From NCBI GenBank assembly GCA_003215535.1, contig QCKG01000001.1, forward strand, positions 1 to 64,000: a DNA stretch of 64,000 bases, given 5' to 3'. The notes beneath the pieces were generated by a model. That model saw nothing but the letters and a program-made list of their open reading frames with translations. It was not told the DNA's origin and did not search any database. A program made the translations under genes and the position numbers. Position 1 is the first letter of the stretch. Each line of letters starts with the position of its first letter. The DNA comes from Prochlorococcus sp. AG-409-L18 (GTDB taxonomy: Bacteria; Cyanobacteriota; Cyanobacteriia; PCC-6307; Cyanobiaceae). Below, one piece after another: positions 37,690-40,600 of the stretch.

Positions 37690-38883
37690 ATGAATACTGA
37701 TTTATCACCTAGCATTGTCACCCAGCCTAATGTTGTAGGAGTAGTAGGTGGGGGTCAGCTTGCTTTGATGTTGCTTGAGGCAGCGCAAAAAAGAAATATA
37801 GAAACGATTGTGCAGACTTCATCTAAGCAAGACCCAGCTGCAAGGAGATCAGGTTCTATTGTCATTGCAAGTCCTGAGGATATAGATGGGACCAAAAAAC
37901 TTGTTAATTCATGTTCATGTGTCACTTTTGAAAATGAATGGGTAAATATTGAGGGTTTATCAAACCTAGAGGAAATAAAAGGTAAATTTATGCCAACATT
38001 GCAATCTCTAAAACCTTTGCTAGACAAATTATCTCAAAGAAAACTCTTATCCGAACTAAAAATACCTGGACCAAAATGGTTAATACTTAATTCTAATCAA
38101 TTGTCTGGTAAGAAATTACCCTCAGGTTGGAGATTCCCCGTAATGGCTAAATCAATAAGTGGTGGGTATGATGGGAAAGGAACAAGAGTTATAAACAACC
38201 TTGGTGATCTTAAGGAATTAATGAGATTAGTCAAACTAGATGATTGGATAATTGAATCTTGGGTTAAATATGACCAAGAATTGGCAATAGTGGCAACAAG
38301 AGACAAGAAGGGAAAAGTAAGGACTTTCCCTCTTGTAGAGACTCATCAAGTCAACCAAGTTTGCGATTGGGTTTTGGCTCCTGCAGAAGTTCCTCACAAT
38401 GTCCAAGTAATGGCATATAACATTGCATCTTCATTGCTAACTCAATTGAATTATGTAGGTATTATTGCAATTGAGTTTTTTTATGGACCAGAAGGGTTAC
38501 TTGTAAATGAGATAGCTCCTCGTACTCATAATTCAGCACATTACTCAATTGAGGCATGTAATAGCAGTCAATTTGACCAGCAAATTTGTTTAGCTTCTGA
38601 TCTCATAGCGCCTCCCCCTGAACTAATAGTGCCAGGAGCCGTAATGGTTAACTTACTTGGCTTACCCAGCGGGATGGCACCTTCCTTGGAGCAGCGTTTA
38701 GATGCTTTAGGTGAATGTGAAGGTATTCATCTTCATTGGTATGACAAGGAATCTGAGACACCAGGACGAAAGCTCGGTCACGTAACGGTTATCTTGAAGG
38801 GAACTTCACCTATAGTACGTAGAGTAGAAGCTTTAAATGCGTTGAATAAAATTAGATCAATTTGGCCAATGATCAAGAGTTAG
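37690..38883 (+). CDS. purK: 5-(carboxyamino)imidazole ribonucleotide synthase
   Basis: A 397-aa ATP-grasp enzyme of purine synthesis. The N-terminus has VGVVGGGQLALMLLEAA, the ATP-grasp loop is VMAKSISGGYDGKGT, and the metal-binding end is LVNEIAPRTHNSAHYSIEAC. Full length. The upstream 278 bp holds promoters for purK and aroB; the downstream region is structured (see 38884-39160). Confidence 0.95.
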   Translation: MNTDLSPSIVTQPNVVGVVGGGQLALMLLEAAQKRNIETIVQTSSKQDPAARRSGSIVIASPEDIDGTKKLVNSCSCVTFENEWVNIEGLSNLEEIKGKFMPTLQSLKPLLDKLSQRKLLSELKIPGPKWLILNSNQLSGKKLPSGWRFPVMAKSISGGYDGKGTRVINNLGDLKELMRLVKLDDWIIESWVKYDQELAIVATRDKKGKVRTFPLVETHQVNQVCDWVLAPAEVPHNVQVMAYNIASSLLTQLNYVGIIAIEFFYGPEGLLVNEIAPRTHNSAHYSIEACNSSQFDQQICLASDLIAPPPELIVPGAVMVNLLGLPSGMAPSLEQRLDALGECEGIHLHWYDKESETPGRKLGHVTVILKGTSPIVRRVEALNALNKIRSIWPMIKS

Positions 38884-38884
38884 G

Positions 38885-39067
38885 TTAGGGGGCTAGATTG
38901 TTTAGGACTGCTCTGTTGGTGAAGGCCTTTTCTAGTGCTCTGATCTGACTCTCTTTCGATTTGGGGTGACTGTCGTGATGGTGACGTAAACCGGCCTTGT
39001 AGCTGGAAACGAAGCCCCACTTTGTATCCCCTTCTGGTTCTTCCAGGTCGAAGCTACTGGGTCTCAC
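38885..39067 (-). CDS. Possible small protein behind purK
   Basis: A 60-codon frame with GTG start (MRPSSFDLEEPEGD, then FVSSYKAGLRHHHDSHPKSK). Its stop is one base from the purK stop, tail to tail. The DNA is noticeably richer in G and C than its surroundings. It could be a conserved basic mini-protein, or the base composition could come from a structured RNA on the opposite strand. I cannot decide between them. Confidence 0.45.
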   Translation of the reverse strand: MRPSSFDLEEPEGDTKWGFVSSYKAGLRHHHDSHPKSKESQIRALEKAFTNRAVLNNLAP

Positions 39068-39125
39068 GGCAAGGTGGTTCGCTAGGCGTAACTGACTGCA
39101 TCAAATATTCTGCTGGTGCAGTCGG

Positions 39126-39160
39126 GTCTAGTTTTTATAGGTTAAAACCAGACTTTTCTT
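39126..39160 (+). terminator. Rho-independent terminator downstream of purK
   Basis: Stem GTCTAGTTTT (39126-39135) with AAAACCAGAC (39144-39153), one A-C mismatch and an 8-nt loop, followed by TTTTCTT. It ends a plus-strand transcript. Confidence 0.75.
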
Positions 39161-39195
39161 AAGTTAAAGGCTATATTTATTTTGTTTTTCTAAAA

Positions 39196-39381
39196 CTATA
39201 GTTCATTTTCTATTACTTTCCTGCTTTCATGAATTGAATCAAGCTCCTTATATATCTCTTTTAGATTGATGTGAATGTGATCAATATTTTCAATTTTAAC
39301 AAGTGAGCTCATGGCAGTCAGAATACTTTCCTTGGCTGCTATTAAAGCTCGACATTGAGTACTCCCTGGTTCGTAAGGCAT
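39196..39381 (-). CDS. Small hypothetical protein
   Basis: A 61-aa helical soluble protein of unknown function: PYEPGSTQCRALIAAKESIL, then HINLKEIYKELDSIHESR. Codon use is like its neighbours. A good -10 element (see 39398-39410) lies a little upstream of the ATG at 39381, which supports a real gene. Confidence 0.55.
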   Translation of the reverse strand: MPYEPGSTQCRALIAAKESILTAMSSLVKIENIDHIHINLKEIYKELDSIHESRKVIENEL

Positions 39382-39583: not shown

Positions 39584-40333
39584 TTAATTTTTGGTTTTGT
39601 AAATAGCTTTATTTAGGTACATTTGTGCATAATTATTGCTTCCTTCAATTCCAAATGAAGTCAAATCTCCGGGTTGTATTTTTGGCATCCAAGCATTCTT
39701 GTGGATTGCAATTATCTCGCCTTCTGGTAGTACATAAGCATTGTTCATATTTTTATGATTAGGTGTAAGTGCAATAAAATTACCTATCAAATGGGTATTC
39801 TTTAGACCCTGCTTGGCCAAGGCTCTACCAAGTACACCTGGGCCTGTAGGACAAATTGGACTCACACCATAATATTCATTTTTACAGTTTTGTATGACTA
39901 ACTCTATCGCAGTGCTAAATATTTCACTGTGAGGTTTCGTGTAGAAGAAAGAGCACTGAATAGCATAAGGGACTTGGTAGGGTTTGATACCGCCACCTTG
40001 ATCCACAAAACCTATAAAATCAATATTTGGATTAATGCCAGCCAAAGTCTTTGTTAATTTAATTGTTATGTCTGCATACCATCCCCCTTTCTCATAGGCT
40101 ATGCAATAACGACCAAGGTCAGCTTTATAGGCATAAGGCTTTAGCTTATCAAATGCTGCTAATGCCTCCGAACCAATTTTGTTACTTATAAATTCTCTAA
40201 CTGATTCCTTGTTATATAAGGTGTAATTATGCTCAGGTAATGACTCCTGGAATATCCTTGTGGTTTCTTGTAGTAATGGCGGTAATTCCTGTGAAGAATC
40301 ACTGATGAATATTTGGAATGCATTTTTACTCAT
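39584..40333 (-). CDS. Glycosyltransferase with DXD-type sugar-binding region
   Basis: A 249-aa protein resembling GT32/TcdA-type transferases. The core is PYAYKADLGRYCIAYEKGGW followed by YADITIKL; in the family this position carries the metal-binding DxD. Here the second acidic residue is Thr (D-I-T), so metal binding may be altered. It could decorate cell-surface glycans; this is inference. It stands alone in the accessory block. Confidence 0.72.
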   Translation of the reverse strand: MSKNAFQIFISDSSQELPPLLQETTRIFQESLPEHNYTLYNKESVREFISNKIGSEALAAFDKLKPYAYKADLGRYCIAYEKGGWYADITIKLTKTLAGINPNIDFIGFVDQGGGIKPYQVPYAIQCSFFYTKPHSEIFSTAIELVIQNCKNEYYGVSPICPTGPGVLGRALAKQGLKNTHLIGNFIALTPNHKNMNNAYVLPEGEIIAIHKNAWMPKIQPGDLTSFGIEGSNNYAQMYLNKAIYKTKN

Positions 40334-40390: not shown

Positions 40391-40600
40391 TTATTCATCC
40401 CAAGGGTCAATATTACTAGACATATCAAGGTCTGGTAAGTCCATCTGCTTCATTTTTTTCATTTGCATCCAATCTGACCACATTGAATTAAGTAGCCAAG
40501 CCTGTGATTGGGTGTTAGCACCTTCATCCAATAATTGGACCTGGAAGGGCTTCAGCGCTTTCCACTCCTTGTATTGCTCCTTCCAATTTTCGTCGTCCAT
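40391..40600 (-). CDS. Small hypothetical protein
   Basis: A 69-aa soluble protein, Trp- and Met-rich (WLLNSMWSDWMQMKKMKQMD) and acidic at the end (NIDPWDE). I do not recognise it. It lies 57 bp upstream of the glycosyltransferase gene on the same strand. Confidence 0.5.
   Translation of the reverse strand: MDDENWKEQYKEWKALKPFQVQLLDEGANTQSQAWLLNSMWSDWMQMKKMKQMDLPDLDMSSNIDPWDE

Follow-up and report, generated by a model that had tools for sequence, protein, structure and literature searches.

6S RNAs restrain RNA polymerase carrying the main sigma factor by mimicking an open promoter, and a product RNA is templated from them.

The closest described systems are the Yfr7 RNAs of Prochlorococcus and Synechococcus. 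For the Yfr7 locus, Northern signals have been reported, and 5' ends were mapped in Prochlorococcus strains MED4 and SS120 (PMC1242208). The RNA has a length of 174-175 nt in SS120, MIT 9313 and WH 8102, and of 220 nt in MED4. According to the same report, high-light strains of Prochlorococcus give two 6S signals, of about 200 and 300 nt, while low-light strains give a single one of about 175-185 nt (PMC1242208). Functional data are available for Synechocystis, where deletion of the 6S RNA was reported to slow both the recovery from nitrogen starvation and the recruitment of SigA by RNA polymerase (PMC5721685).

A 6S RNA gene directly behind purK

The window, that is the whole stretch of 64,000 nucleotides from Prochlorococcus sp. 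AG-409-L18 that was analysed, carries a G+C-rich region directly downstream of purK. A preliminary description had left a choice here between a 6S-like RNA and a mini-protein on the opposite strand, and had named Rfam models, covariation and third-position substitution bias as the means to decide. The following features were annotated.

37690-38883, plus strand: purK, 5-(carboxyamino)imidazole ribonucleotide synthase, 397 aa (NCBIfam NF004679 at 1.7e-129 and TIGR01161 at 3.6e-103, both above cut-off; Pfam ATP-grasp and PurK_C)
38885-39067, minus strand: open frame of 60 codons with a GTG start, judged to be a non-coding shadow of the 6S RNA
38894-38899, plus strand: TAGATT, probable -10 element of the 6S promoter, of the form TANNNT that is conserved in the family loci
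38902-39084, plus strand: 6S RNA (ssaA / yfr7), given as the extent of the RF00013 match and with covariation
38905-39080, plus strand: closing stem of the 6S RNA, delimiting a predicted mature RNA of about 176 nt
39081-39136, plus strand: likely two-tier intrinsic terminator with T-run, directly after the closing stem (fold of -25.3 kcal/mol, z -4.47)
39126-39153, plus strand: second hairpin, which would form in place of the outer terminator stem and contains an A-C mismatch on the plus strand

The region matches the Rfam model of 6S/SsrS RNA (RF00013) over its full length (model positions 1-187 of 187) with 96 bits, about twice the gathering score of 46.4, and with an E-value of 5.8e-18. Only one other match in the whole window, a tRNA, exceeds its gathering score, and this is the only RF00013 match in the genome (assembly of 1,775,338 bases in 43 contigs, 90.1% complete). 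Together with the purK synteny and the covariation described below, this bears out the 6S-like reading of the preliminary description. The RNA at 38902-39084 is the orthologue of Yfr7 as described in PMC1242208. It is an ordinary gene of a known kind in the place that it usually takes in marine cyanobacteria, and as such is already known. An ambiguous call is thereby decided: the locus encodes a known regulatory RNA and should be annotated as 6S RNA rather than as a hypothetical protein. We have hardly any doubt that the locus as a whole is best explained by a single 6S RNA gene on the plus strand, which most likely has its own promoter and is abutted by a hairpin terminator, while the minus-strand frame is no gene.

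Rfam scores for rliA, the xanthine riboswitch, GIR1 and RAGATH-8 between 38700 and 39400 were all far below their own gathering scores. A phage origin was rejected, as a search of the phage collection gave nothing at E-values up to 1.

The G+C content of 0.525 at 38900-39099 confirms that the region is richer in G+C than the window (0.38); the flanking values are 0.275 at 39100-39299 and 0.40 at 38700-38899, and part of purK itself (38600-38799) reaches 0.48. The nearest named relatives of the purK in the window are records from Prochlorococcus and Synechococcus.

We searched 99 genomes, including the own one, for 6S RNA and accepted matches with an E-value up to 0.001. Such a match occurs in 87 genomes, in 86 of them above cut-off. 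It is found in 50 of the 61 genomes from the own family and in 37 of the 38 from other families of the class. All 50 loci from the own family were examined, and in each of them purK is located directly upstream on the same strand. The link between cyanobacterial 6Sa RNA and purK made in the preliminary description thus proved correct, also in view of PMC1242208. In 49 of the 50 family loci, the last base of the purK stop codon falls in a range from 24 bases ahead of the Rfam match to 2 bases within it. For other families, 14 of the 37 loci were fetched, and purK was encountered within 1.5 kb in nine of these, upstream on the same strand in eight and downstream in one.

Twelve of the 99 genomes lack a 6S match. 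Ten of these are only 53-88% complete, and the remaining two are G024 (95%) and G085 (99%), the latter a member of another family than that of the window. Incompleteness does not account for these last two cases. When the 11 own-family genomes without a match were searched for purK, a close purK was found in two, matches with 23-27% identity in five, and none in four. As the latter nine have at best such distant matches, it is probable that these assemblies (53-88% complete) lack the locus. One of the ten less complete genomes is G021, where the start of a 6S gene is present behind purK but is truncated at the contig end. This copy was missed by the Rfam search, so that incomplete or divergent copies can go unnoticed in it.

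In G024, purK is present (locus L145, contig C1, 1323355-1324497), but no 6S RNA is recognisable behind it, and none was detected genome-wide at E-values up to 10. A scan for the bubble pattern gave 20 places, all with two mismatches, compared to eight for the reversed control. This may be a natural loss of the 6S RNA; other possibilities are a gap, strong divergence of the gene or its move to another place.

Several open frames are located further downstream on the minus strand. Two of them lack a family match. The 61-aa frame at 39196-39381 has a relative only in L032 among the 49 other family loci (73% identical), and the 69-aa frame at 40391-40600 has one only in L051 (61% identity), the latter comparison covering loci that extend about 1.5-2 kb downstream. 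Between them, 39584-40333 codes for a protein of 249 aa with a modest Pfam match above cut-off (9.1e-7) to the glycosyltransferase sugar-binding region with DXD motif.

Probable promoter and terminator

A -10-like element is conserved upstream of the 6S RNA. With an allowed spacing of 4-9 nt, the loose motif TANNNT and an anchor set in every sequence by means of a simple pattern, it stands ahead of the closing stem in all 50 family loci; of the control positions within purK, 78 of 1750 have it. The spacing is 5-7 bases in 49 of the 50 loci. A sigma-70 scanner listed no site at the proposed 6S promoter. The transcription start is predicted at 38905.

In 29 of the 50 family loci, the -10-like element begins with the purK stop codon (TAA or TAG), which supplies its first three bases; the purK stop of L043 was misplaced, as the alignment ended early, and this locus was scored as having no overlap. 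The window is not among the 29, with 10 bases between the purK stop codon and the -10-like element (38881-38899).

Downstream of the RNA, an outer stem (39081-39087 with 39126-39132) encloses an inner stem (39092-39103 with 39114-39125) and is followed by TTTT at 39133-39136. Only 1 of 200 shuffles folds as well as this structure, and we consider it likely that the hairpin at 39081-39132 and the TTTT represent the 6S terminator. Two consecutive hairpins had been proposed to end a plus-strand transcript. They are better read as one two-tier terminator. A strand argument based on a G-U pair holds for only one of the two hairpins. In the first (39092-39125), the plus-strand G-U pair becomes A-C on the minus strand (-18.4 and -12.0 kcal/mol, respectively), whereas for the second, which overlaps the outer stem, the minus strand has a slight advantage in stability (-9.0 on plus, -10.7 on minus), so that the argument is reversed. 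A mechanical scanner that accepts loops of up to 8 bases called no terminator between 38700 and 39400; the loop of the inner stem has 10 bases.

Among relatives, 26 of 50 loci pass a loose terminator criterion, 19 of them starting near the 6S end, but this criterion is weak as shuffled flanks reach 60 of 200 and 47 of 200. Hairpins of at least -18 kcal/mol, a limit picked after the loose-criterion result, occur with the same placement in 14 of 50 family loci; shuffled flanks give 22 of 1000, and other positions downstream 8 of 500. Most loci (36) thus have no such terminator by these tests. The family terminators include several outer stems that differ in sequence but are complementary. Complementary outer stems also occur in L032, L041, L049 and L057, which failed the T-run criterion.

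A far-reaching proposal for marine picocyanobacteria would be that the end of purK and the 6S promoter are fused, with the purK stop codon (TAA or TAG) reused as the start of the 6S -10 element, so that purine synthesis through purK and the RNA that sequesters the polymerase are kept in one unit. The abutting two-tier terminator would then define where the RNA ends on its 3' side, and G024, which retains purK, would represent a natural 6S loss. As a package, we regard this as speculative and improbable.

Conserved fold and the two strands

To characterize the fold, the 50 family 6S sequences were aligned with MAFFT and the structure was computed by RNAalifold. In this structure, 96.8% of the cells are paired, compared to 91.1% in shuffles and to 35-49% when the partners are slid, the latter control favouring the structure as it was taken from the same alignment. 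The base pairs covary: changes on both sides were counted in 131 cells versus 37.6 in shuffles, and they are spread over 19 of 44 pairs. They affect 8 of 13 pairs in the closing stem, 6 of 7 in the helix above the bubble, and 3 of 5 in the terminal stem, and the helix covariation values were reached by none of 500 shuffles. The large, mostly unpaired bubble by which a 6S RNA is recognised is found between the closing stem and the upper stem-loop; small local hairpins drawn by RNAalifold inside it are without both-side changes. The 6S sequence from the window, when taken alone, folds no better than its own shuffles (z -0.82).

It is the plus strand that carries the conserved fold. The consensus energy is -44.1 kcal/mol for this strand versus -19.1 for the minus strand (reverse-complemented alignment), and the plus strand is the more stable one in 48 of 50 single sequences. 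That both readings are real, as an antisense pair, had been considered in the preliminary description. As a rival explanation, both strands would be transcribed, with an antisense RNA regulating the 6S RNA. Antisense RNAs are reported to be common in Prochlorococcus MED4 (PMC2518516), and a promoter-like site on the minus strand (39321-39293) is directed towards the region. However, this site is at chance level (two sites on both strands, with a mean of 1.2 expected), the minus-strand consensus fold is much weaker, although a plain antisense RNA needs none, and expression of the opposite-strand genes annotated at this locus in MIT 9313 and WH 8102 was reported as undetected (PMC1242208). We found no support for such an antisense pair and consider it very unlikely.

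Still less probable is that the RNA merely belongs to the purK messenger as its 3' untranslated tail. The RNA starts about 20 bases or less from the purK stop codon, as would be expected for a tail, but it shows the 6S fold over the full length and is preceded by a -10-like element that is conserved, and an initiation site was mapped for Yfr7 in two strains (PMC1242208).

The minus-strand frame, which as noted earlier ends one base from the end of purK at 38883, is not a gene. Searching with its translation by tblastn gives matches in 47 of the 49 other family loci at E-values up to 0.01, but conserved DNA alone would yield those. Its substitution rates at the three codon positions are equal, with 0.246, 0.236 and 0.247 (733/2983, 699/2960 and 729/2946 in 49 relatives), while purK from the same loci, the positive control, shows 0.394, 0.261 and 0.666. 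Of the 49 relatives, 31 keep a start codon, 18 keep the length phase and 13 are free of early stops; only two combine all three. There is no Pfam or NCBIfam match at E-values up to 0.001. PMT0670 and SYNW1307 have been annotated opposite Yfr7, and Axmann and others reported that their expression was undetected (PMC1242208). Although the frame is open over 60 codons from a GTG start, a conserved mini-protein of 60 residues is rejected on the missing codon-position bias, the very test suggested for it, and its probability is close to nil. This is a clear case of a frame antisense to a structured RNA that appears "conserved" in a protein search and yet is non-coding.

We thus return to the single 6S RNA gene. 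Transcription would run along the plus strand, with a start most likely at a promoter of its own just past the purK stop codon, and the transcript would end at the hairpin terminator that abuts the RNA (to about 39136). Trimming at the 3' end would then leave a rod that measures about 176 nt. From what is established for the family, this rod with its central bubble would imitate an open promoter and sequester RNA polymerase that carries the main sigma factor, and the rod would be released once the polymerase copies a short product RNA from it. The present data demonstrate the identity of the RNA, its strand, its conserved fold, the gene order and the conserved -10-like element; transcription, processing and polymerase binding are inferred for this genome.

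Comparison with described 6S RNA genes

The 6S (SsrS) RNA of E. coli belongs to the same family, RF00013, which the RNA in the window matches over the full length of the model. Its neighbour gene is ygfA and not purK.

The 6S RNAs of more distant cyanobacteria are members of the same RNA family and are also stated to be located behind purK (PMC1242208). For Synechocystis, slr1287, slr1288 and sll1166 are given as neighbours (PMC5721685), and the gene order there may thus differ.

The agreement is closest with Yfr7. In Prochlorococcus MED4, SS120 and MIT 9313 and in Synechococcus WH 8102, this RNA is likewise encoded directly behind purK (PMC1242208). The size of about 176 nt predicted here compares to 174-175 nt in three of these strains, and a misleading frame on the opposite strand, as found in the window, is also reported for the Yfr7 locus of two strains (PMC1242208).
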